A stretch of DNA of 50,795 nt from contig NZ_QMEA01000051.1 of the NCBI RefSeq assembly GCF_012912105.1, positions 1 through 50,795 on the forward strand. The letters run 5' to 3'. The translations under genes and the position numbers were made by a program. The DNA is from Brasilonema sp. UFV-L1. Its GTDB lineage: Bacteria > Cyanobacteriota > Cyanobacteriia > Cyanobacteriales > Nostocaceae. How positions within the stretch are numbered: position 1 is the stretch's first letter; each line of letters starts with the position of its first letter. Below the pieces are notes generated by a model. The model ran no database searches. It was not told the origin of the DNA and saw only the letters and a list, made by a program, of their open reading frames with translations. This document shows, piece by piece, positions 24,732 to 43,930 of this stretch.

Positions 24732-24757
24732 ACTATTTGTTTATCTGTTTACCGTAT
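24732..24757. promoter_or_regulatory. 26-bp sulfur-region motif, site A (TACTA-N16-CCGTA)
   Basis: The half-sites are exactly 16 bases apart, as in the two near-perfect dyads at 38103 and 43905. The site lies about 195 bases before the ssuA-type gene (minus) and in the shared spacer with the haloperoxidase-like gene (plus). Confidence 0.5.
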
Positions 24758-24890
24758 TTAACACTTGTATCGGTTGATAATGACATAGATTGCTGGAATA
24801 GGCAAGCCAAATATACGGTGATTTTGTAACAATCGTTTACTTGCTTTTGACGGTTGTTTGTGAGATATTGTTGATTTAACAGCTAAAATA

Positions 24891-24916
24891 TACGGTTATT
24901 TAATAGATTTACAGTA
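24891..24916. promoter_or_regulatory. 26-bp sulfur-region motif, site C (TACGG-N16-CAGTA)
   Basis: This is the second copy in the same spacer, with one mismatch in the right half. A further isolated TACGG half-site lies at 24814. The rest of the 775-base spacer is AT-rich, without a gene. Confidence 0.5.
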
Positions 24917-25311
24917 CATTTGCTGATTTTTGAAAGATAGTGGCTTTAGCTGTACCATCGTTTGAAAAAGCGATGTCGAATGATTTTTAGCTACTCAAAA
25001 TCAGCACTGACAAATCAACGAGGGATAAATGCCATCAATGTTTTGTTGATTTATTACGAGAGCATTGAGAACGATACCTAAGTCATTCTCACAATAGTTA
25101 AAGCAAGTCTAATTTGTGCGTAAAAACGCACGATTACTTACTGTTAGATATTCCTACAGCTTATACAGTCGCTTTCATATGTATAAGCATAATTGCTATG
25201 CAGTGAAACCGTAGCAATAGGTACAGCTATTAGGAATCATTCCTGCGTACTTAAAGTTGTCTTGCAATAGTACAACGCTCTATATCACTTTCTAGTTTTG
25301 GAGGAAATCTC

Positions 25312-27135
25312 ATGTCACCCGAACCAACTTCTAATCAAGCTTCTCAAGAGAATACACAACAGCAAAGCGAAAAAACAAATCCCAATCAAAATCTCTTTAG
25401 TGCCAGCAGCAGACGCCTATTATCTGGTCGAGTTGGTAGACGCGGATTTCTTGGTCGTGTTGGTTTGTTGAGTGCTACTGCCACTGGTGTTGTTACGGGA
25501 GTCATAGGTTCACCCTTCTCCTCTAAAAGAAGAGGAGATATTGTCCAGGCACAGGATATTGTTGGTCAATTTAACTTTGACTATGCAGGGTTTAGCCAGA
25601 AAGCGTATCAAGTACGTGTTCGAGCAGCGCAACTTGAGTTAGAGATAGGCGTTCCGCCTCATCCGACTAATGGCGATGAAGAACGCTATCCTAACAAAAT
25701 TGCTACCGACACCAGGGGATTACCACACGACGAACGAGGCGAAGTCAAGCCAGAAGCTTACAAATCTTTAATCAAAGCACTCTCATCGCGTAACCCTGAT
25801 GACTTTGAAAATATTATCTTGGGTGGCGGGCGGAAGTTGGTTAATCCTCAAGGACCATTGGCAATTAGCTTGGAAGGGATAAACGCAGCTCAAATAGCAA
25901 CTCCACCACCACCAACTCTAGATAGTGCAGAACAGGCTGGCGAGGCAGTTGAACTTTACTGGCAAGCTTTACTGCGGGAAGTCCCTCTTAACAAGTTGCA
26001 GAACAACACTGACGATCCAAAAGTCCTAGCCGCTATTGAAGACCTGAACAAACTTTCAGAATTTCGAGGACCAAAACAGGGTGGTGCTGTCACTCCTCAA
26101 ACTCTGTTTCGTGGCAGTGTCACCTATGTCGATAAGAATGACGGCAAGACAGCACAACACTTTGTTCCACCTGGAGTAACGGACGGTCCTTACATTTCAC
26201 AGTTTCTGTTGCAGGATATTCCTTTCAACACTCAGTTTATCTCGCCTCTGATTCGTACTGCTCTTCCTGGCAACGACTTCCTCACCGATTACCAGGAATG
26301 GTTAACCGTCCAGAATGGAGGCAGTTCTGGCAAATCTCTTAGATACGATCCAACACGCCGTTACATATCTACTGTTCGCGATCTAGCTGAGTATGCACAT
26401 ATTGGTGGTGCTTTGTTCTTTGGAGCTCTATTAATTTTAAGTGGTGGTATTAACGCTCCCTTGAATCCAGGCAATCCGTATGTCAACTCGAAAACTCAAC
26501 TAGGTTCTGCTGCGACATTTGCAGCAGCGCATTATCAAGCTTTACTCCTATTGGCTCCCTCACGGGCAATTAGAGCCTCCTACTGGCAGAAATTTTATGT
26601 ACACCGTCGTCTACGACCAGAGGCATATGGTGGACTAGTTTACAACAAACTGGTCAACAAAACTGACTATCCAATCAATTCCGAGGTCTTAAATTCCAGA
26701 GCTTTAGCTCAGACTAATAGCACCTTTGGAACCTATTTGTTGCCTCATGCGTACCCAGAAGCAGCACCGTTCCATCCCTCTTACACTGGTGGTGCTGCCT
26801 CTATTGCCGGTGTCCAAGCCACATTGTTGAAAGCGTTCTTTGACGAGAACTTTGTCATCCCTAATCCTGTGGTACCTGACCCCAATGATCCCACAAAAGT
26901 GATTCCCTATAGCGGCGAGCGACTGACAGTGGGTGGAGAATTGAACAAGCTGGCAACTAATTATGCTATTGGTCGCAGCCTTGGCGGTATCCATTGGCGT
27001 TCAGATGGTGCAGTTGGCTTGGCTTTAGGAGAAGAGGTTGCTATTAGCATTCTCAGAGACGAAAGGCTGGGGTACAACGAAAAATTTAACGGCTTCACGT
27101 TTACCAAGTTTGATGGGACAAAAATCACAGTTTAA
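25312..27135 (+). CDS. Tat-exported vanadium haloperoxidase-like protein with altered active site
   Basis: The 607-residue protein carries a twin-arginine signal (GRRGFLGRVGLLSATATG) and a C-terminal PAP2/vanadium-haloperoxidase fold. Vanadate-pocket residues K427 and R435 (WQKFYVHRRLRP), R555 and H561 (RSLGGIHWRSD) are retained. The catalytic loop that reads PSGH in bromoperoxidases (PAGH in other cyanobacteria) is T492-G-G-A495 here, so both the vanadate-binding Ser and the acid-base His are gone. It may bind phosphate or vanadate without halide oxidation, or have another function. GGAGG precedes the ATG, and a terminator follows at 27180. The spacer with the SsuA-type gene carries two copies of the 26-bp motif. 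Confidence 0.85.
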   Translation: MSPEPTSNQASQENTQQQSEKTNPNQNLFSASSRRLLSGRVGRRGFLGRVGLLSATATGVVTGVIGSPFSSKRRGDIVQAQDIVGQFNFDYAGFSQKAYQVRVRAAQLELEIGVPPHPTNGDEERYPNKIATDTRGLPHDERGEVKPEAYKSLIKALSSRNPDDFENIILGGGRKLVNPQGPLAISLEGINAAQIATPPPPTLDSAEQAGEAVELYWQALLREVPLNKLQNNTDDPKVLAAIEDLNKLSEFRGPKQGGAVTPQTLFRGSVTYVDKNDGKTAQHFVPPGVTDGPYISQFLLQDIPFNTQFISPLIRTALPGNDFLTDYQEWLTVQNGGSSGKSLRYDPTRRYISTVRDLAEYAHIGGALFFGALLILSGGINAPLNPGNPYVNSKTQLGSAATFAAAHYQALLLLAPSRAIRASYWQKFYVHRRLRPEAYGGLVYNKLVNKTDYPINSEVLNSRALAQTNSTFGTYLLPHAYPEAAPFHPSYTGGAASIAGVQATLLKAFFDENFVIPNPVVPDPNDPTKVIPYSGERLTVGGELNKLATNYAIGRSLGGIHWRSDGAVGLALGEEVAISILRDERLGYNEKFNGFTFTKFDGTKITV

Positions 27136-27178
27136 AACATTAAGGGCTATGCGTCCAAAAAGTAGCAATTGTATTTAC

Positions 27179-27205
27179 TAGCCCCAGTTTGGGGCTATTT
27201 TCTTT
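27179..27205 (+). terminator. Rho-independent terminator
   Basis: AGCCCC-AGTTT-GGGGCT forms a perfect 6-bp stem followed by ATTTTCTTT, 45 bases after the haloperoxidase-like stop codon. Confidence 0.8.
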
Positions 27206-28254
27206 GGTCATATCTTTGGTCAGATGTTCAATGGTAATAATGCATGAGAACAGCTTTTATTTAGACGTTGCTGAAATCTTAATATGAATTTCACGCATCC
27301 CATTAATGTAGAACTTTCGGATGCAACGTCTCTACAGAGATTTGCTTGCTATCTTTCTTTAAATATGTCAATATGTTTTTTCAGTTGTTTTAAATACGGT
27401 TTGTTTATCAATTTACTGTTAAAAAAGCAAGTCAAAAAAATTATACAAGGAAACAAAATAAGGAAAGTCACTCGCTAGCCCCTAAGAGGGGGCCGGAGCT
27501 AACGCTGCCTACGGCACGCTACGCTAACAAATTCAAAATTCAAAATTCAAAATTCAAAATTAAGGACTCCACGGACGCCACATGCTACAAGTCGGCACAG
27601 CCGCCCAACGCAGTGCCTCATGAATCCGGAAGCTTGAATAATGTTGCGGGACATTTTTTATTGTCCATGAATAAATACATTCGCATGTATCCTTTTCTTT
27701 TTCGGTCATATGACCTTTCTACAGTTATCACAAATTTAAAAACCAAAATCGGTTGAACTTTTTCTTTAGAGCATCGTTATTATGTTCTTTTTTTGGCAAT
27801 TCCCATATATCTTGTCTCCCCTGTTGTTGCTCCACTAATGACTGAAGATGAAGTGGTAATTTGGACTGTTGTCCAAGTAACCAAGGTTCTCCATCAAATA
27901 ATTCTCTTTCAAATGGTTGATTAAACATATTACATTTTTAATTTTTAATTCTTAACGCTGATTTTCCTAAAGACAAACAAATCACATCATTCTGTGGTGT
28001 ATGAATACAGCTACATCGTTGAAAGTAACAATCTCAATGTCTAATCCTGCATCAACAGTATTGTCTTAATACTGATTAACATCACTCCCTTCCTCCTCTC
28101 TTTTTGCGTACTCTGTCTTGGAAAGTTCTGAGCCTCGCTCCGCGAGGAGCTTGCGCTAACGGAAGAAACCTTCGCTCAGACTTTCCGCTGCGTACTCTGC
28201 GGTTCATTCATAAGTATCATTTCTGCAATACAAGTCAACTCTCCTTAAATTTTC
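27206..28254. repeat. Repeat-rich spacer
   Basis: It contains GGATGCAACGTCTCTAC (shared with 12332), a heptamer array AAAATTC at 27529-27562, palindromic GC repeats at 27476-27528, and a fold-back at 28121-28187 (GGAAAGTTCTGAGC against GCTCAGACTTTCC). The only plausible gene is the small frame at 27728. Confidence 0.55.
27728..27928 (-). CDS. Possible small protein, unknown
   Basis: A 66-residue frame starts with ATG and has ordinary protein-like composition (FDGEPWLLGQQSKLPLHLQSL), acidic and Gln-rich, without membrane segment or known motif. No ribosome-binding site is evident, and it lies in a repeat-rich spacer, so it may not be a gene. Confidence 0.3.
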   Translation of the reverse strand: MFNQPFERELFDGEPWLLGQQSKLPLHLQSLVEQQQGRQDIWELPKKEHNNDALKKKFNRFWFLNL

Positions 28255-28278
28255 AAAAAGCCCCCCTAGAGGGGGGGT
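28255..28278 (-). terminator. Rho-independent terminator of the LLM/diiron operon
   Basis: Read on the minus strand, CCCCCC-TCTA-GGGGGG is followed by CTTTTTG. It lies about 30 bases past the stop codon at 28309. Confidence 0.75.
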
Positions 28279-28308
28279 GAAAGAGGAGAACACGTTTTCT
28301 AAATTTCT

Positions 28309-29124
28309 TTACTCGCTAACGCTTACTAACTTGGGAAGTTGAGAAACGGGGATGTCCAAAAAGTAAGCAAGCACCTCTCTCCGCCATGCATCGTAAATCA
28401 CTGGTAATCCTTCAATTTCTGCACCCGTGGCGCGGTGAATAATACCCCAATACTCATTGAGGTAAGCATTGCGTCGCCGCTGTCCTTCTTCGTCCAGTTC
28501 AAGGAGTTGTGCTGCGATTTCCTGTTTCTGTGTAGGTGATGCTTGCTCATACTTACGTTGCCACCAAGCTAACACCCCCAAGCGGTGGTATGCTTCATCA
28601 GGGAGAATTTTCTCAACACCAAATTTCCCTGTTTCTGGGTCGTTGATTTTTGTTGTGCGGCTATTTAAAATCAACTGAGCAACGATATGCAGTTCATAGT
28701 GCAACTCAAACGCCATGAACCCTAACCAGTTACGATGAGGCAAGTCTCCCATGAAGTCCCAGTGCTTTTGTACCCTCTGCTGTATCTGGGTGATGGGATC
28801 GTGTCCTGTTAATTCCCACACTCGCTGACGGGTATGTTGAGCGTGTGCGCCATCATCGCCAATTTGGCGGCTCAAAAATAGTTGCAGTTCTGGGTCAGGA
28901 ATTTGGTCTATTACCTTACCACAAACTTGCACTATATACAAGTCGTGAGCTGCACCACCAATACGGAAGTGGCAGAAATTCTCTATTTCTTCTTGTGTGA
29001 TAGGTTGTCGGGGTGTTGCAGCGCGAGTTGTGGGAAAATGAGGAGCATACCGAGCAATGAGTTTGTCGATAATTTCAATTTCCAACTCAGGTGTCCAAGT
29101 CAGACGAGTCAAGGTTGCAGTCAT
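28309..29124 (-). CDS. Putative diiron (ferritin-like) protein paired with LLM monooxygenase
   Basis: The 271-residue, mostly helical protein is not one I can name. Its His/acid pattern suggests a carboxylate-bridged diiron site: E48 (TQEEIENF), D91-x2-H94 in DDGAHAQH, E140/E144 in FELHYELH, and E177-x2-H180 in PDEAYH. This E...(D/E)xxH...E...ExxH order is that of ferritin-like or haem-oxygenase-like diiron oxidases. It lies 59 bases downstream of the LLM flavin monooxygenase, shares its terminator, and so probably acts in the same oxidative step. Function is unproven. Confidence 0.7.
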   Translation of the reverse strand: MTATLTRLTWTPELEIEIIDKLIARYAPHFPTTRAATPRQPITQEEIENFCHFRIGGAAHDLYIVQVCGKVIDQIPDPELQLFLSRQIGDDGAHAQHTRQRVWELTGHDPITQIQQRVQKHWDFMGDLPHRNWLGFMAFELHYELHIVAQLILNSRTTKINDPETGKFGVEKILPDEAYHRLGVLAWWQRKYEQASPTQKQEIAAQLLELDEEGQRRRNAYLNEYWGIIHRATGAEIEGLPVIYDAWRREVLAYFLDIPVSQLPKLVSVSE

Positions 29125-29183
29125 ATAAGCCTTCAGTAATGAGAATCAAAAATGAGAGTCAAAAATGCTACTGTTGTTGGGTG

Positions 29184-30233
29184 TCAAGTTACAAATTCTA
29201 ATGAGCGCACTCGCGGCATCACCTCTTGGGAGAAGCGTTTTATCTCCGTAGGAAAAGGTTGAAATTGCAGCATAAAAGTATCAATGCCTATTTCTACAAA
29301 ATCAGCTATCCGTGCAGCTACGGTGTCATAGCTGCCAACTAAGCCTGCTGCTGTACCGCCGTTACTCCCCACACCAGGATATTTCGCCATGTTTTTGAAC
29401 ATCACCACTTCCGGTTCAACACCTTTCAAGAGTTCGCTTCTGTCGTCTTGTTTGGTGAGTTCTAACAAATATTCATATTCTGCCTGTGCTTCGGGGTCTG
29501 TTGATCGGGCAATCACAAAGGCTGACAGCGCAAAGCATAGCGGTTTGGATTGTGTGCGTGTCCGGTTTCTTAGGGAGGCGATCGCTTCGCGCACGACATC
29601 CAAAGGACGACCATTCAGGAAAAAGACATCTGCTTCGAGTGCTGCTAACTCTTTGGCTGCTTCTGACTCACCACCTAGATACACGCGGGGATGCGGTTGT
29701 GCGACTGAACGCGGACGCAAACACAAATCATTGATCGCAAAGTATTTTCCTTGAAAACTTACCCGTTCTCCACTCCACAGCCTCTTTACCACCTTAATCC
29801 ACTCCTGAGAATAGCCGTAGCGTTCATCGTGGGGTAGAAAAGGTATGCCGGACTTTTGTAGTTCCGGCATAAACCACGCGCTAACCAAGTTAACGGCAAA
29901 ACGTCCGCCGCTGATGGCATCAATACCTAATGCCATCTTGGCTAGGACGACTGGATGAAACAGCAAAGGCTTCACAGCAGCAATGATTTCAATCGATTTA
30001 GTTGCTTCAGCTAGGGCTGCTGCTGTTGTCCAAGTCTCTAACTGCTCAAATTCTTGATTTCTTGGATTAATGATGTGTTCAGCGATGAGAGTAGTCGTAA
30101 ACCCGTACTCTTCTGCTAGCTGGATGAGTGTCTTTGCTCTTAAGTAGCTTGCGTCACGAGGTTCAAGTGGATGGTTCATCGCGCCACAATTACCGTAAAC
30201 AGGAATCCAAATCCCGTAACGTGGTTGAAACAT
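29184..30233 (-). CDS. LLM-class flavin-dependent monooxygenase (SsuD/SfnG-like)
   Basis: The 349-residue protein fits the bacterial luciferase-like TIM-barrel family in length and motifs: YGIWIPVYGN at the start, LAEEYGFTTTLIAEHIIN, GIDAISGGRFAVNLVSAWF (the conserved S-x-GR-x-x-x-N-x-V), RPRSVAQPHPRVYLGGES and the C-terminal GIDTFMLQFQPF. Members near sulfonate transporters (SsuD, SfnG) cleave C-S bonds of alkanesulfonates or dimethylsulfone using FMNH2 from a partner reductase. A 26-bp motif copy lies 67 bases upstream. The exact substrate cannot be read from sequence. Confidence 0.85.
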   Translation of the reverse strand: MFQPRYGIWIPVYGNCGAMNHPLEPRDASYLRAKTLIQLAEEYGFTTTLIAEHIINPRNQEFEQLETWTTAAALAEATKSIEIIAAVKPLLFHPVVLAKMALGIDAISGGRFAVNLVSAWFMPELQKSGIPFLPHDERYGYSQEWIKVVKRLWSGERVSFQGKYFAINDLCLRPRSVAQPHPRVYLGGESEAAKELAALEADVFFLNGRPLDVVREAIASLRNRTRTQSKPLCFALSAFVIARSTDPEAQAEYEYLLELTKQDDRSELLKGVEPEVVMFKNMAKYPGVGSNGGTAAGLVGSYDTVAARIADFVEIGIDTFMLQFQPFPTEIKRFSQEVMPRVRSLEFVT

Positions 30234-30299
30234 AACTTCTATGGTTGCTTGAAAACAAAGTTTTCCGAAGTCTAGACGCTTAAACTAATGAATTTAATT

Positions 30300-30325
30300 T
30301 ACTTTTATATTATCGACTTACCGTA
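30300..30325. promoter_or_regulatory. 26-bp sulfur-region motif, site F (TACTT-N16-CCGTA)
   Basis: It lies 67 bases upstream of the LLM start. The inner ten bases next to the right half (TATCGACTTA) are identical to those of the site before the aldo/keto reductase at 39331. Confidence 0.55.
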
Positions 30326-30537
30326 GTATAAGTATTAGTATATAACTATTTCACAAATGAAGAGAAAAAGCAAGGAAAATAGGTGAACAAATGTTTACAG
30401 CTATTTTCAGTTCATTGAACCACAGATTTTCGTAGGGGCTTTCGTCTAGCCCATATGTGTCAACTTAAGATTTAAACGCTTGCGTGATAGTCGTTTCTCG
30501 TTCCTTGCTGTACTGCTGTGCCTCCCAATAATTATAT

Positions 30538-30600
30538 TGAGGCAGAGCCTCTGATAGTGCATTCCCATGAGTCGCATGGGAACGAGGGAATGATGGGAGA
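30538..30600. repeat. Dispersed cyanobacterial intergenic repeat
   Basis: The unit GAGGCAGAGCCTC followed by CATTCCCATGAGTCGCATGG and GAACGAGG is a palindromic repeat of a family common in Nostoc-like genomes. A frame reading through it is not a gene. Confidence 0.6.
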
Positions 30601-31483
30601 CCTTCCTAACGACTATACATTAACCTTTTCCACAGAGTGCAGCGGTCCTAATCGGCGTAGTTCCGGTAGCAGCAAGGCAATAACTAACACAACTAGAATC
30701 GTGCCAATTCCGCCGCCTACCACAGCAAGAGTAGGTCCAAAGAATGCTGCTGCTAAACCAGATTCAAAGCTGCCTAACTCGTTTGATGTACCAATAAATA
30801 CGCTGTTGACAGCAGAAACACGACCGCGCAGTTCATCTGGAGTACGCACTTGCACGAGTGTATGACGGATGACGACGCTGATGTTGTCAAAAGCTCCACT
30901 CAATGCCAACATAACTAGGGATAGCTCGAAGGAACGCGATAAGCCAAAAATAATCGTCACTGCACCAAAACCGATGACTGACCATATTAGCGCAATCCCT
31001 GCTCTTTTCATCGGTGGCAGATGCGCCAAGGTGACAGCCATCACCAATGCACCAATTGCTGGTGCAGCGCGTAACCATCCCAACCCAGTAGGACCGACTT
31101 GTAAGATATCTTTAGCAAAGATGGGTAATAATGCTGTAGCACCACCTAACAACACCGCAAACATATCGAGAGCGATCGCACCAAAAATGACTTTGTTGTG
31201 CCAGACAAAATTCATTCCAGCAACTAAGGTTTTTAAAGAGGGTGTTTGAGTTGACAAACGCACAGTTTTCTTGTAGATAATAGCGGCAATTAAACCCGTA
31301 CAAATCATGATCAGTGCCCCATCAATGACATAAACCCTGGTGGCACTTTTTTGTAGTGCGATCATCCATCCACCTAATGCAGGACCAAGTACTGCAGCTA
31401 GTTGGAAAGCGCTACCAAAACAGTATGGGAGCGTGAGAGCCTCCCACTTTTAAGGGGAGGCAGGAAAGAGAGCACGCAGGACT

Positions 31484-31636
31484 TTAGTCCGCAGTGTCTC
31501 TTCCTTTGGAAAGAACAAGACCATCAATCCACTCTTCAATCAAAGCAGTAACAGTCTTGTCTTTTTGAGCAGCATATAAAAGAAGCTTATGTTTTCGTCT
31601 GTCTGATAATCTGATTTGTAATGAATTATTTTTCAT
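31484..31636 (-). CDS. Ribbon-helix-helix small protein accompanying tnpB (second element)
   Basis: The 50-residue protein begins with a strand (NSLQIRLSDRRKHKLLLYAA) followed by two helices (KDKTVTALIEEWIDGLVLSKG), matching the CopG/Arc RHH layout. It is divergent from tnpB with a 58-base gap that holds a perfect palindrome (31663-31674), the same arrangement as the element at 8826-10137. It probably acts as a repressor of the element's promoters. Confidence 0.6.
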   Translation of the reverse strand: MKNNSLQIRLSDRRKHKLLLYAAQKDKTVTALIEEWIDGLVLSKGRDTAD

Positions 31637-31662
31637 AAAAGCAAATACATTGTAACTGCATT

Positions 31663-31674: not shown

Positions 31675-31694
31675 TAGTGAGGAGGTAATAAAAG

Positions 31695-33098
31695 TTGTAC
31701 AAAACAATTCAGGTCAAATTAAATGTATCCGAAGAGGTAATGACTTTCCTGGTTCATCAAGGTCATGCTGCAAATAGTTTGATAAACAGCGCTCATTACG
31801 AGATACGACAGAAGCATTATGCAGAATGTCCAAAGGTGGAATTCTTTGATAAAGACGACTTTTATCGTACTAGTTTTAAAATCAAAACGGTAAAGGACGC
31901 AGGATACGCAAGTCTTTGCACTCTCATGAAAGATAATCCCCACTATCAACAATTGGGTGGTCAGTGCGCTCAACAGACATTAAAATCTGTAGCCGAACAA
32001 TACGTAAGTTATAACGGACTTTTAAGTAGTTGGGCTAAGGGCGAAGTCAGTAAACCATCTATGCCAAAATATCGGAAATCTGGAGGTGTGTCAGGGTTTA
32101 CCTATCCTGCTCAAGCAGTTGCTTTAGACATAGAAAATGGAATGTGTCGCTTGCCAATTCCCAGGGAGTTAAACTCATTAATTAAAGACGAGTTAGGACT
32201 GAAAGAAATTTGGATTAATGGTGCAACTGGTTTTATTCCATCACAATTAGTGGAAGTCAGGATAGTGCCGAGAAATAATAATTGGTATGCAGAGTATGTT
32301 TACCAGTCAGGTCATGATGGAGCAATTTGCAGTTTAGTGTTAGACCATAAAAGTGCAATTGGAATTGACCCAGGCACTGCTAGAAACTGGTTAACCTGTG
32401 TAACCACAAACGGGAAAAGTTTTATTATTGATGTCAAAAAGATAAAGGCAAGCAATCAGTGGTATAACAAACAAGTTGCAACTTTGAAAGATGGAAAGCC
32501 ACAAGGTTTCTGGAATGACGAGTTAGCCCAGATAACAGAACGAAAGTACCGGCAAATGCGGGATGCTGTGAATAAAACAGCCAGATTTGTTATCAATTAC
32601 TGTTTGAACCACAAAATAGGTAATGTTGTATTTGGTTGGAACGCCGGACACAAAGATGGTTCTGACATGGGCAAACGTAATAATCAGAACCACGTTCAGA
32701 TACCGACAGCAAAACTAAAAGAACGAATTAAACAGCTTTGTGAGGAAAACGGAATACAGTTTCATGAAACCGAGGAGTCATATACTTCCAAGGCGTCTTT
32801 TTTAGATAATGATGTACTGCCAAAGTATGGTGAAAAACCCAAGGAATGGAAGCCATCAGGCATTAGAAATGGACGCATTTATAAAACGGCACATGGCATG
32901 ATTGTCAATGCAGATGCTCAAGCAGCTGCCAATATTTTAAGAAAAGTAGCTATACAGCTAGGTTTTAGCCTAGTCAAGATAGTTAGGGAAGTTTTGACCC
33001 TTCCAAAGCGCTATGACTTGTTCAGGAATCTGAAAAAGAGTTATAGAAAAAGAAGTTGCGAAGGGGGACTAAAAGTCCCCGTAGCAACAACTGCTTAG
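31695..33098 (+). CDS. tnpB: TnpB-like nuclease of divergent type
   Basis: The 467-residue protein is larger than the first TnpB and belongs to another branch. Motif RuvC-I is AIGIDPGTARNW (Asp). The region GKRNNQNHVQIPTAKLKERI followed by ETEESYTSKASFLDND replaces the usual IEDL block, and the last Asp is in VNADAQAAANILRK. No CxxC zinc ribbon is visible. The acidic residues of EESYTSK may supply the second catalytic carboxylate. The start is TTG 31695: GGAGG at 31681-31685 fits it, and no nearby ATG does. The C-terminal 30 codons overlap right-end hairpin DNA. Confidence 0.85.
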   Translation: MYKTIQVKLNVSEEVMTFLVHQGHAANSLINSAHYEIRQKHYAECPKVEFFDKDDFYRTSFKIKTVKDAGYASLCTLMKDNPHYQQLGGQCAQQTLKSVAEQYVSYNGLLSSWAKGEVSKPSMPKYRKSGGVSGFTYPAQAVALDIENGMCRLPIPRELNSLIKDELGLKEIWINGATGFIPSQLVEVRIVPRNNNWYAEYVYQSGHDGAICSLVLDHKSAIGIDPGTARNWLTCVTTNGKSFIIDVKKIKASNQWYNKQVATLKDGKPQGFWNDELAQITERKYRQMRDAVNKTARFVINYCLNHKIGNVVFGWNAGHKDGSDMGKRNNQNHVQIPTAKLKERIKQLCEENGIQFHETEESYTSKASFLDNDVLPKYGEKPKEWKPSGIRNGRIYKTAHGMIVNADAQAAANILRKVAIQLGFSLVKIVREVLTLPKRYDLFRNLKKSYRKRSCEGGLKVPVATTA

Positions 33099-36264: not shown

Positions 36265-37920
36265 TCATGCTGCCACTTCTACTTTAACTCTGGTCTGTTG
36301 TACAGGGGCAGCTTTCACCCAGACACGATCCAAACCACCACTAATTAAGTAATGTTGCTGATTAACATCCTGTTGGGGATAGTCTGTATGTTTGTGCATC
36401 CCCCGAGTTTCTTTACGTTCCAAGGCGCTGCTATACATCCACCGAGATGTGGCTACCATTGCGGCGGCTTCCCGCACACGGAGAATGTTGTTATCATCTG
36501 CTTGAATTGTGCGAATTTCTTGCCAGAGGTGATTTAATCTCTGTAATGATTCGGTTAATCTTGTTTCGCTGCGGAAGTAATTGCGATCGTAGGGGAAAAC
36601 TTCTGCTTGGGTGGCTTGGATGATTTCTATAGAGTTGAGCCCAGCTTCACTATCGGTTTTGAGTGGATGTTGATGCCTGGATGTAAATCCTACCTCACCT
36701 ACAGCTTCGACTCGCCGTTGGTTTGCTTGTGTGCCTAAATCATGTGCATAAACAGCCGCAGATTGTCCTGCCCAATAACCTGAAGACAATGCCCAAGCTG
36801 CATTATGACTGCCTCCGCCCGTGAATCCACCGCAAATAAGTTCTCGCGTCGCGGCATCACCTGCAGCGTATAAGCCTGCTACGGAAGTTGCGCAAGTATC
36901 ATCAACAATCCGGATGCCACCTGTACCGCGTACAGTTCCCTCTAAGCGGAGAGTGACGGGGAAACGTTGTGTAAAGGGGTCTATGCCTGCACGATCAAAG
37001 GGTAAGAAGAAGTTGGGTTGTGCTTTTCGCATATGTACCCGCATTTCTTCTGTAGCTTGATCCAAGATGGCGTAAACAGGCTGCGTTAATAAGGTTTTGG
37101 CAATGACAGAACGCCCTCTTTGTGAGCCAGCTCCAGGAATTGGTGTACCATCAGAGTAAGTGAAAGTTGCCCAGTTGTAAAACAGAGTTTTAGTGACAGA
37201 AGAAAAGGCGGGAGAGATGCCGTAGGCGTTGGAAAACTCCATCCCCGACATCTCGGCACCCGCTTCGGCTGCCATAAGGTAACCATCCCCTGTTAGCACA
37301 TTGCAACCAAGCGCCTTACTCAAGAAAGCACAGCCACCTGTTGCAATGATGACTGCACCTGCATGCACAAGCCATTTGTTTCCAGTTTGGCGGTTGACTC
37401 CCGTCGCACCTGCAACTCTTCGGTCTCTATCCACTAGCAGTTGCAAAGCTGGACTATGGTCTAATATTTTTACCCCCGCCCGTTTGACTTGCTTTCGCAT
37501 CAAGTGCATATACTCTGGACCTTGCAGACTACGCCTGTAAGGTTTACCCTCGTCGTCTGTTGGGAAAGGATAACCCCACTGCGCCAACAAATCAACATTG
37601 GCATAAGTTTGATTTAGAACCCGTTGCATCCAGTTGCGGTTGGCTAAAAATCCTCCTAAAGTCTCCCGAGAAGCCATTGCCGCTTCCCGCGCCTGCGCAT
37701 CAGGTGGTACGTACCACACACCGTTACCCGATGCCGCTGCACAGCCACTCGTACCACAGTATCCTTTATCAACAAGAACGACATTCGCACCTTTGAAAGC
37801 CGCACTCCAAGCCGCCCAAGTGCCAGCTGGTCCACCCCCTATAACCAGAACATCACAGAGCAAGTTTGGTTCATATTCAATGGTAGATACTTTCCCTGTC
37901 CACAATAGATTCTTACTCAT
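36265..37920 (-). CDS. AprA-like / fumarate-reductase-type flavoprotein subunit (copy 2)
   Basis: The 551-residue protein has the FAD loop VLVIGGGPAGTWAAWSA, the motif KGYCGTSGCAAASGNGVWYV, the VIIATGGCAFLSKALG strand, and GLYAAGDAATRELICGGFTGGGSHNAAWAL near the C-terminal FAD contact. It is distinct from copy 1, being shorter and with a different middle domain, but of the same superfamily. Its own ferredoxin and a binding protein follow in an operon. A near-perfect 26-bp dyad lies about 183 bases upstream. Reaction unknown; oxidation or reduction of an organosulfur compound is the leading inference. Confidence 0.8.
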   Translation of the reverse strand: MSKNLLWTGKVSTIEYEPNLLCDVLVIGGGPAGTWAAWSAAFKGANVVLVDKGYCGTSGCAAASGNGVWYVPPDAQAREAAMASRETLGGFLANRNWMQRVLNQTYANVDLLAQWGYPFPTDDEGKPYRRSLQGPEYMHLMRKQVKRAGVKILDHSPALQLLVDRDRRVAGATGVNRQTGNKWLVHAGAVIIATGGCAFLSKALGCNVLTGDGYLMAAEAGAEMSGMEFSNAYGISPAFSSVTKTLFYNWATFTYSDGTPIPGAGSQRGRSVIAKTLLTQPVYAILDQATEEMRVHMRKAQPNFFLPFDRAGIDPFTQRFPVTLRLEGTVRGTGGIRIVDDTCATSVAGLYAAGDAATRELICGGFTGGGSHNAAWALSSGYWAGQSAAVYAHDLGTQANQRRVEAVGEVGFTSRHQHPLKTDSEAGLNSIEIIQATQAEVFPYDRNYFRSETRLTESLQRLNHLWQEIRTIQADDNNILRVREAAAMVATSRWMYSSALERKETRGMHKHTDYPQQDVNQQHYLISGGLDRVWVKAAPVQQTRVKVEVAA

Positions 37921-38102
37921 GAGAAGCCCCGCTTCAACAGTTTAGAACTTATGTACAAACAAAGACACAAAATGAGTGACAACACAAAAATGCCAGTTGG
38001 TTGTCAAACGAAGTTAAGATAATGGAAAATTACGAAAACTGCGTCAAACTGTAGCTTGTGACTAAAGTTGTTTGATAAACTCTTAACTCTTCAAATTTAA
38101 AG

Positions 38103-38128
38103 TACGGTTAATTAGTGGATTAACCGTA
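38103..38128. promoter_or_regulatory. 26-bp sulfur-region motif, site D (perfect dyad)
   Basis: TACGGTTAAT and ATTAACCGTA are exact 10-bp reverse complements around a 6-base spacer, 183 bases before the flavoprotein copy 2 start. It could in principle form an AT-rich hairpin after the aldo/keto reductase gene, but no T-run follows, so an operator is more likely. Confidence 0.65.
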
Positions 38129-38218
38129 TTATTGGATATCCTAGAAATATCGCACAGTTTGTAAAAAAAATCAAGAACAAATTTTATGGGCAGAAAATAT
38201 CTGGGACACGAGCATATT

Positions 38219-39259
38219 CTACGGTGCTGGATTAGGATACCGAGTATGAACTGCATTTAATTCTGCTATAGTATCTTTGTCCAACACGACATTCACACTT
38301 TCTAAATTTTCTTTCAGTTGTTCCAACGTTGTCGCCCCAATGATTGTACTGCTTGTAAACCAACGACTGCGGACAAAAGCTAATGCTAAATGTGAAGGTT
38401 TCAAGTTATACTTATGGGCGATTTCTACATACGCTGCGACAGCTTCATTAACATTTGGTTTAAGATAACGCTGTCCAAAACCAGGGAAGAGAGTGAGTCG
38501 TGTATCCTGTAGCGGTTTATTATGTACGTATTTGCCGGATAACAACCCAAATCCCAGTGGACTGTAAGCTAACAAGCTAACATTTTCGCGATAGCAAGCT
38601 TCTGCTAAAGCTGAATCAAACACCCGATTTAAGAGATTATAGGCATTTTGAATGGAAACAACTTTTGGTAGTCCCAACTGCTGTGCTGTACGGCTGAATT
38701 CACATACTCCCCAAGGAGTTTCATTACTCAAGCCCAAGTAACGAATTTTTCCTGCTTTAATAATATCTGCAAGAGCTTCTAGTTGTTCCGCAATAGGAAT
38801 AGTATCTCGCTCAAAAGCTGAATTATACTCTATTTGACCAAACAGAGGAACATAACGGTCAGGCCAGTGAATTTGATATAAGTCAATATAGTCTGTTTGT
38901 AAGCGTTTGAGGCTATCATCTACTGCCTGTTTGATATTCTCGCGGTTAATGTTTAAATTGCCTTCCCGCAGCCATTTAAATCCTCTTCCTGGACCTACAA
39001 TTTTTGTAGCGATGATCAGTTTATCGCGCTGTTGTTTTTTCAGCCATTCTCCAATATAAGTCTCTGTTCTTCCTTGGGTTTCACCACGAGGTGGAACTGG
39101 GTACATTTCTGCCGTGTCAATAAAGTTTACTCCATAGGCAATCGCATAATCTAGCTGCTTGTGAGCATCTTCAATAATATTTTGTTGCCCAAAAGTCATA
39201 GTTCCTAGACAAATTTCTGAAATCTTGAGGTCACTATTGCCCAGTTGGTTATATTTCAT
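38219..39259 (-). CDS. Aldo/keto reductase (Tas-like)
   Basis: The 346-residue TIM-barrel protein contains the family motifs LGTMTFGQQN, GVNFIDTAEMYPVP (catalytic Asp and Tyr), the Lys in KLIIATKIVGPG, YIDLYQIHWPDR (catalytic His) and IGATTLEQLKENL for NADPH phosphate binding. It reduces carbonyls; the aldehydes freed by desulfonation would be plausible substrates, by inference from position. A 26-bp motif copy lies 72 bases upstream with an inner sequence like that before the LLM gene. Confidence 0.88.
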   Translation of the reverse strand: MKYNQLGNSDLKISEICLGTMTFGQQNIIEDAHKQLDYAIAYGVNFIDTAEMYPVPPRGETQGRTETYIGEWLKKQQRDKLIIATKIVGPGRGFKWLREGNLNINRENIKQAVDDSLKRLQTDYIDLYQIHWPDRYVPLFGQIEYNSAFERDTIPIAEQLEALADIIKAGKIRYLGLSNETPWGVCEFSRTAQQLGLPKVVSIQNAYNLLNRVFDSALAEACYRENVSLLAYSPLGFGLLSGKYVHNKPLQDTRLTLFPGFGQRYLKPNVNEAVAAYVEIAHKYNLKPSHLALAFVRSRWFTSSTIIGATTLEQLKENLESVNVVLDKDTIAELNAVHTRYPNPAP

Positions 39260-39330
39260 GAATCCTTACGTTATTTCGCCTCGATATAGTCTCTATCAGT
39301 GTTTCAAAAAACTACACACCACTCTTAATT

Positions 39331-39356
39331 TATTTAATTTTTATCGACTTACAGTA
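39331..39356. promoter_or_regulatory. 26-bp sulfur-region motif, site G (TATTT-N16-CAGTA)
   Basis: The left half is weak, but the right half with its adjoining TATCGACTTA is nearly identical to site F before the LLM gene. It lies 72 bases before the aldo/keto reductase start. Confidence 0.45.
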
Positions 39357-39500
39357 GTTGTAAATAAATAATTGTATCTTACCAGACATTTGTTTAGTAG
39401 ACAATATCTTTGACTTAACATAAATTATAAAAAAATGTCATCTAAAATACTTTATTTTGTTCAGGTGATATGGAATGCTCCTATCTATGTAGAATAAAAA

Positions 39501-39526
39501 TACTTAAAATCGACTTAGTTACCGTT
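39501..39526. promoter_or_regulatory. 26-bp sulfur-region motif, site H (TACTT-N16-CCGTT)
   Basis: It lies in the spacer between the aldo/keto reductase and porin genes, about 380 bases before the porin start. It shares ATCGACTTA with sites F and G. Downstream, 39541-39837 holds a dispersed GC repeat and no supported gene. Confidence 0.42.
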
Positions 39527-39906
39527 TTTTATCTCCAAAGTTATTGTGTTCGTTCCAAATGAGTAGTTTTTGCTGTAAATTGCAGCGAGAATTCTGAGCG
39601 GAGAAAATCTCCGCCCAATGTACTGAGAGGGGACCGGTGAAGCCCCCCGACGGTGCGAACTGCCTCTCCCATTGGGCTGGATATTTTATTTTTTTGGATC
39701 TCTCCTACGCGAAACACAGGCTGCTGAACTTTGGATTTGTAGCCACTACAGTTTGTAGTAGTTAATAGCGGGAGCAACGCGAGTTGAGAATTTTTAGATA
39801 ACTCACGCAATACTTGGTTAACACTAAAGACTTCCATTTTATCTGGCTGGTTTCTGTGGAGATACAGAGCATGATGTGCCAGACCGACTTGGGTGATTCT
39901 AGCAAA

Positions 39907-41634
39907 ATGAAAAAAACTTTGTGGAATTTATTACTGACTCTACCAATATTTCTGGTGCTGCTTTTATTAGTAGCCAATGCAAAAGCTTTTGGAGAAGAAA
40001 CACCTTCAGAATTTCATCCTGATATTCGTGATCCAGAATTACTTAAGTCATTTGATCCTGCAATCAAAGAGTTAAAAATAGTACGAAAAAATCAGTTAAT
40101 CTCGCAAAATTTACCACAGACAACACCTACTGAGCCTACAAAACCATCATCAGAACCACCAATGACATCTGTTTCTCAACTTTCTGATGTGCAACCCACA
40201 GATTGGGCATTTCAAGCACTCCAGTCCTTGGTTGAACGCTATGGTTGTATTGTCGGCTACCCTAACAGCACCTATCGCGGAAATCGTGCCTTAACACGCT
40301 ATGAATTTGCGGCGGGTTTGAATGCTTGCGTAAGTCCTGTTAATAAACTGATTGCATCATCAACAGCAGATTTAGCAACTAAGGAAGATTTAGCGACGAT
40401 ACAGCGACTGACTGAGGAATTTCGTCCAGAACTTGCCGAATTAGCAGGAAGAATAGATTATTTAGAAACCAAGACAGCACAAGTTGAAGCGGAACAATTT
40501 TCGACGACGACTAAACTGGTAGGTAATGCGATTTTCGTAGTGGCTGATACTTTTGGAAATCGCCCAAACAACACTCCTGCCAATGATACCAAGGATACTA
40601 CTAACACCTTTTTTGCTTACCGTACTCAACTTTCGTTTCAAACCAGCTTTACTGGGACAGATCAACTACTCACTACATTACGAGCAGACAATATTCCTAA
40701 TTTGACATCGAGTACAGGAACTAGTATGACCCGCTTTGCCTTGGATGCATCAAGTTTTGGGGATAGTGACCTGTTTGTGGAAAACTTATACTACCGTTTT
40801 CCAATTGGTAAAAAAATCACTGCTTGGATAGGTCCGAGGACACTGAACTTCCCAATTTATGTCCCAACGTTAAACTCCTTGAATGGTAACCCATTTCAGG
40901 GTGGTTTTTCCCGGTTTGGACAGTTTAACCCGACTGTGTACCGACCAGGTTTTGATGGTGCAGGTGCAGCTGTTGCTTATAAATTTAGCGATCAATTACA
41001 AGCACACGTAGCTTACATAGCAGATGGCTTTTTTGCGAACAGACCCGACAAAGGACTTTTCAATGATAGTTCCCAAGCGGCGATCGCCCAACTCACCATC
41101 TCTCCCAGTAAGCAATTTGATTTAGGGCTGACTTATACCCGCAAATACTTTCCTACGAATTCTGGTAATAATCTGACTGGCGGAACAGGTAGCGCTTTTG
41201 CACGCAATCCTTTTGGGCAAAATGCTACTACATCCGATAATTTTGGCCTGGAGTTTAGCTGGAAAGTTAGCCAGCGTTTTACTTTAGGTGGATGGTTTGG
41301 TTACACGCAAGCGCATCAAGAAGTTGGCGGTGATAATGATGCGACTATCATCAATGGTGCGCTGACCTTTAGTTTCCCTGATTTATTTCAGCAAGGAAAT
41401 ATAGGTGGTATTACTATTGGCATTCCGCCGAAAGTTACCAGTAATGATTTCAGACTCGCTGGACAACAACGAGAAGACCCTGATACATCTTTACACATCG
41501 AAACTTTCTATACTTTTCGGGTAAATAACAACATCAGAATTACACCAATTGTTTATCTGATTACCAAACCAGAACATAATGGCAACAATGACCCAATTTT
41601 GGTAGGTGTTCTTCGTACAAGTTTTTCTTTCTAA
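39907..41634 (+). CDS. SLH-domain OprB-type outer-membrane porin
   Basis: The 575-residue protein starts with a signal peptide (KKTLWNLLLTLPIFLVLLLLVANAKAFG). An SLH domain follows (VSQLSDVQPTDWAFQALQSLVERYGCIVGYPNSTYRGNRALTRYEFAAGL), then a short coiled coil (LATKEDLATIQRLTEEF) and an OprB-type beta-barrel ending in an aromatic residue (TSFSF). This is the standard cyanobacterial porin layout: SLH anchors to peptidoglycan and the barrel spans the outer membrane. ATG 39907 (MKKTLW) is chosen because it begins the signal peptide; the longer frame has no such signal. A binding-protein gene follows 47 bases later, suggesting a dedicated uptake pore. Confidence 0.9.
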   Translation: MKKTLWNLLLTLPIFLVLLLLVANAKAFGEETPSEFHPDIRDPELLKSFDPAIKELKIVRKNQLISQNLPQTTPTEPTKPSSEPPMTSVSQLSDVQPTDWAFQALQSLVERYGCIVGYPNSTYRGNRALTRYEFAAGLNACVSPVNKLIASSTADLATKEDLATIQRLTEEFRPELAELAGRIDYLETKTAQVEAEQFSTTTKLVGNAIFVVADTFGNRPNNTPANDTKDTTNTFFAYRTQLSFQTSFTGTDQLLTTLRADNIPNLTSSTGTSMTRFALDASSFGDSDLFVENLYYRFPIGKKITAWIGPRTLNFPIYVPTLNSLNGNPFQGGFSRFGQFNPTVYRPGFDGAGAAVAYKFSDQLQAHVAYIADGFFANRPDKGLFNDSSQAAIAQLTISPSKQFDLGLTYTRKYFPTNSGNNLTGGTGSAFARNPFGQNATTSDNFGLEFSWKVSQRFTLGGWFGYTQAHQEVGGDNDATIINGALTFSFPDLFQQGNIGGITIGIPPKVTSNDFRLAGQQREDPDTSLHIETFYTFRVNNNIRITPIVYLITKPEHNGNNDPILVGVLRTSFSF

Positions 41635-41681
41635 AGACGACATTCAATCACAATCAAGTTATTAAGAGGTAAAAACCTATC

Positions 41682-42800
41682 ATGAATTTGATTTGGCAGC
41701 AGTTAGAAATGTGGATTTCATCACTAAAATCTCAATTATCGAACTGGAAGAATCACACAAAACTATTCTCTGTCATTCCTGTTCCTATTGCAGGAGCATT
41801 TGTGACTGGTGTGTGCCTTAGCTTATTATTTGCAGCTTGTACATCACCTAATTCTACGAATAGTAATCTAGCCAATTCTTCTGCTAGTCCTGTTAGTAAT
41901 ACAACTGGTGCTAAAGCTTCGATTGTGAGATTTGGCTATCAGAAGTCAGTGATTTTATTAAAAGCTAAAGGTGTTTTAGAGAAACGCTTAAAGCCAGAAG
42001 GAATAGGTGTTGAATGGATAGAATTTCCAGCAGGTCCTCAACTCTTAGAAGCGATGAACATAGGGAGTATTGACTTTGGTCATGCTGGAGAATCTCCACC
42101 AATTTTTGCTCAAGCTGCAGGAGCAAATCTGACTTATATTGCTGGTATTGCAGCAAATCCAGCAGGCTCAGCTATTCTCGTTCCCAAAAACTCCCCCATC
42201 AAATCAGTCGCTGAATTAAAAGGCAAAAAAATAGCTTTTCAAAAAGGATCTAGCGCTCATTATCTACTTTTACAAATTCTGGAAAAAGCAGGATTAAAAT
42301 ATAGCGATATTCAACCCATATCTTTACCACCAGCAGATGCACGTGCTGCTTTTGTAAAAGGTAGTATAGATGCATGGTCGATTTGGGATCCCTTTTATGC
42401 AGCGGCAGAAAAATCTGCTAATGCTCGCGTTTTAATTGATGGAAAAGAAATTAACAGGCAAGGAGGGTATTATCTGGCAAGTCGGAAATTTGCCGATAAT
42501 AATCCACAAACTATTAAGGCAATACTAGAAGAAATTAAAAAACTAGAAGATTGGTCTGATAAGCATCGGGATGAAGTAGCAGCAACTTTGTCGCCAGTTT
42601 TGGGCGTAGATTTAGATACCATGAAAAGGGCAACCCAGAGGAAAACTTTTGGGATTGTGCCGATTGATGAAAAGTTGATTGCGGAACAACAAAAAGTTGC
42701 TGATAAATATTATCAGTTGAAACTTATACCTAAACAAATTAGCGTGCGGGATGCGACGCTTACACCACAACAATATGCTGCTTTTTCCCCAAAAATATAA
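41682..42800 (+). CDS. ssuA: Sulfonate ABC transporter substrate-binding lipoprotein (SsuA type)
   Basis: The 372-residue protein has a long N terminus, a hydrophobic segment and a lipobox (LLFAACTS, Cys53). The binding fold shows VRFGYQKSVILLKAKG, VEWIEFPAGPQLLEAMNIGSIDFGHAGESPPIFAQAAG and PPADARAAFVKGSIDAWSIWDPF. It shares most motifs with the protein at 23469 and 45599. AGAGG precedes the ATG. It follows the porin and precedes the nitroreductase gene, so the three may be one unit. Confidence 0.9.
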   Translation: MNLIWQQLEMWISSLKSQLSNWKNHTKLFSVIPVPIAGAFVTGVCLSLLFAACTSPNSTNSNLANSSASPVSNTTGAKASIVRFGYQKSVILLKAKGVLEKRLKPEGIGVEWIEFPAGPQLLEAMNIGSIDFGHAGESPPIFAQAAGANLTYIAGIAANPAGSAILVPKNSPIKSVAELKGKKIAFQKGSSAHYLLLQILEKAGLKYSDIQPISLPPADARAAFVKGSIDAWSIWDPFYAAAEKSANARVLIDGKEINRQGGYYLASRKFADNNPQTIKAILEEIKKLEDWSDKHRDEVAATLSPVLGVDLDTMKRATQRKTFGIVPIDEKLIAEQQKVADKYYQLKLIPKQISVRDATLTPQQYAAFSPKI

Positions 42801-42869
42801 ATAATGAGATAAATAGTGAGTGGTGGGTTGTTATTTTAAAAAGGTGCTTTGATTTCTACTCAATCACTT

Positions 42870-43697
42870 ATGACTAATCCAACTGAGTTACTCAAACAGC
42901 GCTACGGAGTTGATGCTTTTGATCCAGAGATTCCTTGGAGTGACTGTATCACTACCTTACTGTCCCACCGTTCTGTGCGTGCTTATCTGGGCAAACCTTT
43001 ACCTTCAGGAACTCTAGAAACTTTAGTGGCGGCGGCGCAGTCGGCTGCGACTTCTTCTAATTTACAAACTTGGAGTGTAGTAGCTGTAGAAGAACCACAA
43101 CGCAAGGAAAAACTAGCGCAACTGGCGAATAATCAAGCACATATTCGCCAGTGTCCTCTGTTTTTGGTATGGTTAGCTGATTTGGCGCGACTGACGTATA
43201 TTGCTGAACATCGCGGACTACCCGATGAAGGTTTGGATTATTTGGAAATGTTTTTGATGGCGGTGGTAGATGCAGCAATAGCCGCACAAAACGCCGTGAT
43301 TGCAGCTGAATCTCTCGGTTTAGGAACGGTGTATATTGGTGCGATGCGGAATCGTCCGGAGGAAGTAGCACAGGTACTTGGTTTACCTCCCCATGTGTTT
43401 GCCGTCTTTGGACTGTGTGTAGGATATCCCGATCCAACAGCAAATACTGTAGTCAAGCCACGTCTACCACAATCAGTTGTTTTGCATCGAGAAACTTATC
43501 ATTTGGCAGAACAAGAGAACGGAATTGCCTTTTATAACCAACTCATGCAAAACTTTTATAATTCACAGCAGATGAATGTTCCCAGTGACAGTGACTGGTC
43601 AGAACATTCTGTCAAACGAGTTGCTTCTGCACGGTCCTTATCGGGACGGGATAGATTGCGCGAGGCGTTACAGAACCTTGGCTTTTTACTTCATTGA
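42870..43697 (+). CDS. NfsA-type nitroreductase-family NAD(P)H:flavin oxidoreductase
   Basis: The 275-residue flavoprotein has the FMN-binding HRSVRAYLGKPLP near the start, AAQSAATSSNLQTWSVVAVE, and GLGTVYIGAMRNRPEEVAQVLGLP, standard for NfsA/FRP-type enzymes. It ends with SGRDRLREALQNLGFLLH, the usual family tail. In sulfonate loci such an enzyme could supply reduced FMN to the LLM monooxygenase, by inference. The start is uncertain: TTG 42849 has AAGG close by, and ATG 42870 lies seven codons on. The stop codon TGA is formed by the first bases of the 78-bp element that follows. Confidence 0.85.
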   Translation: MTNPTELLKQRYGVDAFDPEIPWSDCITTLLSHRSVRAYLGKPLPSGTLETLVAAAQSAATSSNLQTWSVVAVEEPQRKEKLAQLANNQAHIRQCPLFLVWLADLARLTYIAEHRGLPDEGLDYLEMFLMAVVDAAIAAQNAVIAAESLGLGTVYIGAMRNRPEEVAQVLGLPPHVFAVFGLCVGYPDPTANTVVKPRLPQSVVLHRETYHLAEQENGIAFYNQLMQNFYNSQQMNVPSDSDWSEHSVKRVASARSLSGRDRLREALQNLGFLLH

Positions 43698-43771
43698 CAC
43701 TCTCATCGGCTTTTAGCCGATGAAATTCTTGCTAAGTCCTATGTCTTTTGGATATAGGGCTGGAGTGTCAA
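43694..43771. mobile_element. 78-bp PATE-like element with perfect 9-bp inverted ends
   Basis: It begins TTGACACTC and ends GAGTGTCAA, exact reverse complements. Two hairpins lie inside: CATCGGCT/AGCCGATG and one pairing AGTCCTATGTC with GGATATAGGGCT. Its end matches the solo end at 461-470 and resembles the tnpB element end at 33130, which suggests mobilisation by IS200/IS605-type machinery. Its first bases supply the stop codon of the nitroreductase gene. Confidence 0.65.
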
Positions 43772-43904
43772 GCAAGCCAAAATATACAAGTTCATTTGCA
43801 GTTTTTTGTAGTAAAAAATACGATAAATTTTGCCTTTCTAGCAATCTTTTTTTACAAAATGTACTTGCTTTTTTCCTGCAACTATGTCAAGATACAAAAA
43901 AAAA

Positions 43905-43930
43905 TACGGTTAACTAACTAATTTTCCGTA
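43905..43930. promoter_or_regulatory. 26-bp sulfur-region motif, site E (near-perfect dyad)
   Basis: AAAATACGG (43901-43909) and CCGTATTTT (43926-43934) are perfect 9-bp reverse complements; TACGG to CCGTA spans 26 bp as at site D. It lies about 268 bases before ssuB. Confidence 0.65.

Follow-up and report, generated by a model that had tools for sequence, protein, structure and literature searches.

A 26-bp palindrome recurs in promoter regions of the window analysed here, the 50,795-nucleotide contig NZ_QMEA01000051.1 of Brasilonema sp. UFV-L1 (contig C284 of a genome of 8.31 Mb in 337 contigs). Judged by sequence comparison, the palindrome is a real, conserved, genome-wide sulfur control site. 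It probably serves as the operator through which a CymR-like repressor of the Rrf2 family, coupled to the cysteine synthase CysK, controls a sulfur regulon spanning the genome. The sites, their conservation and spacing, the adjoining genes, the co-occurrence with Rrf2 proteins and the sites before the Rrf2 gene rrfC were computed directly, and from the whole we infer Rrf2 binding, repression and a signal passing through CysK and O-acetylserine.

A palindrome with fixed spacing

A first-pass annotation, made from the letters of the window, had described seven sites with half-sites exactly 16 bases apart. All seven are present (Table 1); the first begins at 24731 rather than 24732, and the other coordinates are correct. 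The site at 38103 does have inner, perfect arms of 10 bp, and the perfect arms of the site at 43905 reach the reported 9 bp when counted outward into the flanks by eye. Alignment of 21 sites on both strands extended the palindrome to 32 bp, composed of the halves AAnTACGGTWAnTnnA and TnnAnTWACCGTAnTT; these sites include three without an adjoining sulfur gene (on C35, on C12 and at C111:20382). The resulting matrix splits the window into ten sites scoring at least 17.6 and everything else, which scores 5.2 or less. The training set had contained eight of the ten; the sites at 2672 and 12075 lay outside it. The ten comprise the original seven, a weaker copy at 12075 that had already been noted, and new sites at 27395 and 2672. 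The copy at 12075 had been described as lacking an obvious target, and we likewise found no target gene in 11662-12397; for the site at 27395, the list of open reading frames holds no convincing gene between 27135 and 28309. The two gene-less sites (12075-12100 and 27395-27420) could be relics of lost genes or small-RNA promoters.

The annotation had held the constant spacing to be hard to ascribe to chance, and our statistics agree. In the 12.15 kb of intergenic DNA in the window, TAC[GT][GT]-N16-C[CA]GT[AT] occurs 8 times (counted on both strands, so that symmetric sites count double), whereas 500 dinucleotide shuffles average 0.26 occurrences and never exceed 5. The gap of 16 is sharp, the same pair of 5-mers being found 0-3 times at each gap of 4-15 and 17-30. 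Two other tests gave weaker results: TAC-N20-GTA, corrected for all gaps, was matched or exceeded in 33 of 500 shuffles of the intergenic DNA, and a one-mismatch search of the whole window returned 45 places with 29 expected, a count that 1 of 100 shuffles reached. Spacing that varied among orthologous promoters had been named in advance as evidence against the motif. Instead, across 51 loci (three from the genome itself), TACnGT and ACnGTA half-sites form 43 pairs at gap 14 and 2-11 pairs at each other gap from 6 to 24.

The palindrome in the genome and in relatives

R1, a model trained on nothing but the seven window sites, was used to scan the genome, as the annotation had proposed, with 150 of 6620 candidates scored. 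Outside the window it found nine places at E<=1. Of these, four recover promoters of sulfur genes, namely those of an ssuD-like gene (C304), ssuE (C272), a gene for a sulfate-binding protein (C271:57615) and a TauE/SafE gene (C326). The ssuD-like open reading frame is short (259 aa) and falls under the NCBIfam cutoff; the gene, at 7889-9035 on the minus strand of locus L022 (C304), is apparently split into two overlapping frames. Two more places belong to an aminotransferase gene (C138) and to fragments of another copy of that gene (C334). The matches of the C138 aminotransferase include methionine aminotransferase, below cutoff; a near-identical operator stands before the intact gene (328-1530 of L045) and before the fragments (285-705 of L044). 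An assignment of C334:241 to an LLM gene was rejected in favour of the adjoining aminotransferase fragments. The remaining three have no evident link to sulfur: C111:154889, C35 and C12. The target at C111:154889 was considered as a second haloperoxidase and rejected, as Pfam identifies an exported carbonic anhydrase and only the leader region is shared.

With one mismatch allowed, a 12-base pattern of the motif occurs at 20 places in the genome, for which gene contexts were taken outside C1, C88, C118, C277, C282 and C310. They include the promoters of further sulfate-binding proteins (C271:56401 and C325:10403) and of a LysR gene (C21:5546); three lie within coding sequence (C235, C280 and C304:77751). 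Two more sites are located on C336, between cysE and the Rrf2 gene rrfC. By position, the sites precede genes for cysteine synthesis, sulfonate use and sulfate uptake.

The palindrome is also conserved between species, a further check that the annotation had called for. Homologues of the AprA-like and LLM genes beside two of the window sites were collected independently of the motif, and a score of at least 15 was counted as a site. Such a site lies upstream of 15 of 24 AprA-like genes (14 genomes; the 24 include the window genome's own second copy, which has no site) and of 6 of 7 LLM genes (four genomes). The promoters of rrfC, described below, behave alike. In a set of 59 related genomes, the window genome included, the model has matches at E<=1 in 48.

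Rrf2 proteins and their co-occurrence with the site

At E<=1e-15, four Rrf2 matches were found in the genome, all of them outside the window (Table 1). RrfA matches PF02082 with 121 bits, and RrfA, RrfB and RrfC exceed the TIGR00738 cutoff for the superfamily. The fold of the RrfC AlphaFold model (pLDDT 84.6, with the last three residues below 50) agrees, its nearest Foldseek relatives being Thermincola potens IscR (4cic) and Bacillus subtilis CymR (2y75).

Among rrfC loci of the window genome and its relatives, 18 of 19 have a site of at least 13 before the gene. We further assembled 53 named rrfC loci from Brasilonema, Scytonema, Tolypothrix, Nostoc, Anabaena, Calothrix and others, from which the four weakest, non-cyanobacterial loci were removed before counting. 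The remaining 49 overlap the other relatives, several sites being identical and probably from the same genomes. They carry a site in 42 cases at a threshold of 13 and in 37 at 15, its centre often 55 bp before the start codon. Two sites are present in 26 of the 49, and at least 22 of these pairs are 80-93 bp apart. Given contig ends, cysE is divergent in at least 26 and cysK downstream in at least 28 of the loci. RrfC ends in MYYI in all 49; the same tail was read in 30 of 30 further loci and is invariant across 12 aligned proteins. cysK adjoins rrfB in all 23 loci read, so that a genetic link to cysteine synthesis is found both there and in the cysE/rrfC/cysK array. The CysE protein of the window genome ends in isoleucine, and one relative (G054) has a B-like rrf2 gene with two upstream sites. 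The second operator between rrfC and cysE (L131-L149, L337-L385) is asymmetric, with one well-kept half resembling TACGGTAAGTCGATA. A TACGGTAAGTCGATA-like half is also found in the window sites at 30300 and 39331, and there may be two classes of site.

Across the phylum, the site co-occurs with the Rrf2 proteins. We called an Rrf2 protein tail-reaching when its match, among the matches listed, extended to the last residue of the query. Of 194 genomes sampled, 79 encode an Rrf2 protein matched at E<=1e-15, and the match is tail-reaching in at least 56. Scanned under stricter filters with 37 candidates scored per genome, 15 of the 56 and none of the other 138 have model matches at E<=0.001, again among the matches listed; at E<=0.05 the counts are 31 of 56 and 11 of 138. 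The upstream regions of sulfate-binding protein (Sbp) genes gave a clearer division. The sample has 104 places encoding Sbp relatives; the three of the window genome were excluded because they had contributed to matrix training, and 87 of the other 101 were examined with a matrix of 18 sites from the window genome, the 14 left out all being in genomes with tail-reaching Rrf2. At a threshold of 15, a site is present in 42 of 63 regions from genomes with a listed tail-reaching Rrf2 and in 0 of 24 from genomes without (some divergent Sbp pairs share one site), or in 32 of 46 versus 0 of 18 when counted by genome. The corresponding regions at thresholds of 12 and 10 are 44 of 63 versus 2 of 24 and 46 of 63 versus 3 of 24. 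Fisher p values at 15 are 2e-9 for regions and 3e-7 for genomes, related genomes being non-independent and phylogeny uncorrected in both. In G018, for which no tail-reaching Rrf2 is listed, two divergent Sbp genes share a partial site scoring 12.9. The 15 Sbp-bearing genomes with only shorter Rrf2 matches are all among the 18 without a site of at least 15. In seven genomes (G038, G073, G094, G111, G117, G136 and G173) the Sbp site is present and RrfB is the only listed tail-reaching Rrf2; RrfA and RrfC would therefore be dispensable there. Among the 59 genomes, the eight without a CymR-like Rrf2 (E<=1e-20) have no model match better than E 0.45.

A proposed CymR-like repressor and its alternatives

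CysR of Synechococcus is a sulfur regulator of the Crp family, and CysB and Cbl are sulfur regulators of the LysR type. Neither an operator for the sulfate-permease or sulfonate genes of filamentous cyanobacteria nor a cyanobacterial CymR-like regulator was found described in the open-licence literature, among the matches listed, a scope that excludes subscription papers and the RegPrecise 3.0 Cyanobacteria collection (PMC3840689).

The closest known system is CymR of B. subtilis and Staphylococcus aureus. It shares with the proteins studied here the Rrf2 fold (2y75), a neighbouring cysK or cysE gene, and sulfur and sulfonate genes as putative targets, and the NCBIfam CymR model aligns through its last position, 139. 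This comparison covers protein and gene context rather than the CymR operator motif. CymR itself uses a C-terminal isoleucine tail to dock in CysK. The present system differs in being cyanobacterial, in having three paralogues, and in putative targets that include sulfate permease and many organosulfur genes. According to published accounts, ssu, cysK and other B. subtilis genes are repressed by CymR acting jointly with CysK, a repression that O-acetylserine lifts (PMC3828012), and CysK is the sensor (PMC2940859); CysK partners usually end in isoleucine (PMC4961446), and the terminal isoleucine of CysE enters the CysK active site (PMC5562914). By analogy, a CymR-like Rrf2 dimer would bind the two half-sites, one per subunit, and repress transcription while cysteine is plentiful. 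Upon sulfur depletion, O-acetylserine would rise and change the partnership between Rrf2 and CysK, which would release the sulfate-permease, sulfonate and other organosulfur genes. Induction of sbpA-cysTWA on sulfur loss has been described for Synechocystis (PMC2491639). The present analysis yields a defined operator of 26 bp and a candidate repressor whose architecture hints at its signal; with the matrix, unknown organosulfur genes can be named from their promoters.

IscR, the other structural neighbour, has the same fold, and its DNA-bound structures 4hf1 and 4chu match the RrfC model; in a study of Clostridium acetobutylicum, the IscR and CymR motifs are reported to be alike (PMC3828012). 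RrfC differs from IscR in lacking the Fe-S cysteine triad (it has two cysteines in all), and the genes beside the sites are sulfur rather than Fe-S genes. The shorter cyanobacterial Rrf2, presumably of the Slr0846 type, belongs to the same superfamily and has a representative in the window genome, but has no MYYI tail.

Several results weigh against a CymR-like repressor. RrfA (104.1 bits), RrfB (104.5) and RrfC (97.0) score below the NCBIfam CymR equivalog cutoff of 195, and we therefore call these proteins CymR-like rather than CymR. The MYYI ending is not specific to CymR; the IscR-type 4cic chain has it too, so that the tail alone proves little. At rrfB-cysK loci, a site of at least 15 was found in 0 of 23 (one reaches 13.1) and, in a further set, a site of at least 13 in 0 of 6; among seven rrfA loci, only that of the window genome has a site of at least 15, located before the neighbouring LysR gene. 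No site was detected in 21 of the 63 Sbp promoters from genomes with tail-reaching Rrf2, including the RrfB-only genomes G032, G051 and G066, and 7 of 51 relatives with CymR-like Rrf2 have no model match at E<=1 (G016, G024, G026, G036, G041, G043 and G048). Finally, TATAAT-like hexamers are placed relative to the site as expected by chance (23 of 97 versus a null mean of 22, for reference-homologous genes). With an open reading frame set excluding truncated genes, 25 of 107 lie upstream, compared to 39 in a reverse-strand control and 40 downstream. Given this chance-like placement of the -10 hexamer, repression is argued only from closeness to the start codon: in 128 target promoters, all chosen because they contain a site, the median distance of its centre from that codon is 63 bp (lower quartile 31 bp), and in 97 cases with a site within 130 bp of the start, Shine-Dalgarno-like bases occur within 30 bp of the site on its 3' side in 38 and on its 5' side in 7. 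This closeness suits an operator near the transcription start better than an upstream activator site.

The annotation had interpreted the motif as the binding site of a dimeric activator. That sulfur genes share a binding site for a dimeric regulator is strongly supported by spacing, conservation and gene context; the word activator found no such support. An Rrf2 protein that binds the site and activates, or that works without CysK, for example by sensing thiols directly through cysteines, is unlikely, even though it is the best of the alternatives. Published reports describe Rrf2 proteins that activate, such as IscR on suf (PMC9973013), and cysteine-based sensing in SifR (PMC9218516), and some sites lie 150-410 bp upstream of their genes, several window sites at 180-410 bp among them. 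Against this stand the invariant MYYI tail (in the 12 aligned proteins and all 49 RrfC), the cysE and cysK neighbourhood, and the nearness of the site to the start in many targets. We give slightly less credence to a different binder that runs the same regulon and is distributed phylogenetically like the tail-bearing Rrf2 proteins: co-occurrence is confounded by phylogeny, and the bare rrfB-cysK loci would fit, but one place where the site is well conserved is before an Rrf2 gene, frequently in the interval that separates this gene from cysE.

The annotation had named LysR- and Crp-type proteins as candidate regulators, and it appears improbable that one of these occupies the palindrome and activates transcription when sulfur is limiting. 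The LysR gene carries a site in its own promoter, in several related genomes it is grouped with rrfC and rrfA, and LysR proteins govern sulfur genes elsewhere (PMC2940859). LysR was detected at E<=1e-60 in 29 of the 59 genomes; four without it at this threshold, which could still encode a more diverged LysR, keep strong sites (G008, G029, G032 and G038, with best model E values of 5.8e-5, 2.9e-4, 2.9e-4 and 1.5e-4), and for this reason LysR is disfavoured as the binder. Conversely, G041 has two LysR matches and no model match, and the sites are often near start codons. The present system resembles that of the known LysR sulfur regulators in its targets, yet LysR here looks like a target. The Crp consensus is TGTGA-N6-TCACA. 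The aligned sites, TACGGT-N14-ACCGTA, are unlike it and contain no Crp-like half-site, a comparison of motifs made without a search for Crp genes. Chance pairing of TAC and GTA in AT-rich intergenic DNA is hardly conceivable: the 12-base pattern by itself, allowing 2 mismatches, is uninformative over the whole genome (154 places versus 333 in a backward control), and for 9 of 87 Sbp upstream regions the best of 100 shuffled versions scored 15 or more, but the shuffle tests and spacing profile counter it and cross-species conservation refutes it.

Returning to the CymR-like repressor, a more tentative extension, which we hold to be somewhat more doubtful than not, is a widespread cyanobacterial sulfur-starvation regulon in which the regulator (through MYYI), serine acetyltransferase (through its isoleucine tail) and cysteine synthase would be in three-way competition, often encoded as cysE-[two operators]-rrf2-cysK. 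RrfA, RrfB and RrfC would share one operator, with LysR as a subordinate node. If this were true, the operator would name new sulfur-use genes, such as those for an exported bromoperoxidase-family enzyme and for an unclassified 271-aa partner of the LLM monooxygenase.

Genes beside the window sites

The sites, their putative targets and the Rrf2 proteins are listed in Table 1.

Table 1. Palindrome sites and putative target genes in the window, and Rrf2 proteins encoded elsewhere in the genome
Feature	Location	Strand	Remarks
Palindrome site, weaker, new	2672-2697	.	Matrix 17.6, outside training; 371 bp upstream of arylsulfotransferase-family gene at 3055 (PF05935)
Palindrome site, weaker, previously noted	12075-12100	.	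Matrix 18.9, outside training
Palindrome site	24731-24756	.	Between SsuA-type gene (23469-24536, -) and bromoperoxidase-family gene (25312-27135, +)
Palindrome site	24891-24916	.	Same SsuA-type/bromoperoxidase divergent promoter region; top matrix score of the window
Palindrome site, new, previously overlooked	27395-27420	.	Matrix 25.8, in training set
Palindrome site	30300-30325	.	About 80 bp upstream of LLM monooxygenase gene (29184-30233, -)
Palindrome site, 10-bp perfect arms	38103-38128	.	About 196 bp upstream of AprA-like flavoprotein gene (36265-37920, -)
Palindrome site, weak	39331-39356	.	Upstream of aldo/keto reductase gene (38219-39259, -); matrix 18.0, in training set
Palindrome site	39501-39526	.	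Upstream of OprB-family porin gene (39814-41634, +; Pfam) and divergent aldo/keto reductase gene; matrix 22.6
Palindrome site	43905-43930	.	About 281 bp upstream of ssuB (44198-44977, +)
SsuA-family aliphatic sulfonate binding protein, putative target	23469-24536	-	TIGR01728 251.5 bits, PRK11553 307.7 bits, both above cutoff
Vanadium bromoperoxidase-family protein, putative target	25312-27135	+	PDB 1qhb, E=4e-72; twin-arginine-like leader (by eye)
LLM monooxygenase, nearest SfnG/SsuD, putative target	29184-30233	-	TIGR04021 241 bits, below cutoff
AprA-like FAD flavoprotein, putative target	36265-37920	-	PF00890/PF02910; NCBIfam AprA 41 bits, below cutoff
SsuB-type ATPase, putative target	44198-44977	+	PRK11247 best, 339 bits, below cutoff of 395
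RrfA	C21		Beside LysR gene; ends MYYI
RrfB	C63		Followed by cysK; ends MYYI
RrfC	C336		Divergent from cysE; ends MYYI
Shorter Rrf2	C326:23229-23618		CymR model match stops at position 125 of 139; no MYYI tail

The bromoperoxidase-family protein matches no Pfam family at E<=0.001. A twin-arginine-type leader like its own, judged by eye, is also present in the carbonic anhydrase on C111 (L047:11732-12604), which has a site nearby too. Adjoining the LLM monooxygenase gene, a 271-aa protein is encoded at 28309-29124 on the minus strand. It has no Pfam, NCBIfam or credible PDB match, and its predicted structure is poor (pLDDT 46); clusters of conserved His, Asp and Glu residues suggest a metal oxygenase. 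A relative with 63% identity is found in G009, 363 bp from a strong site. TnpB-type genes of transposon-associated appearance, at 8826-9911 (minus strand) and 31695-33098 (plus strand), flank or sit inside the sulfur region when inspected by eye.

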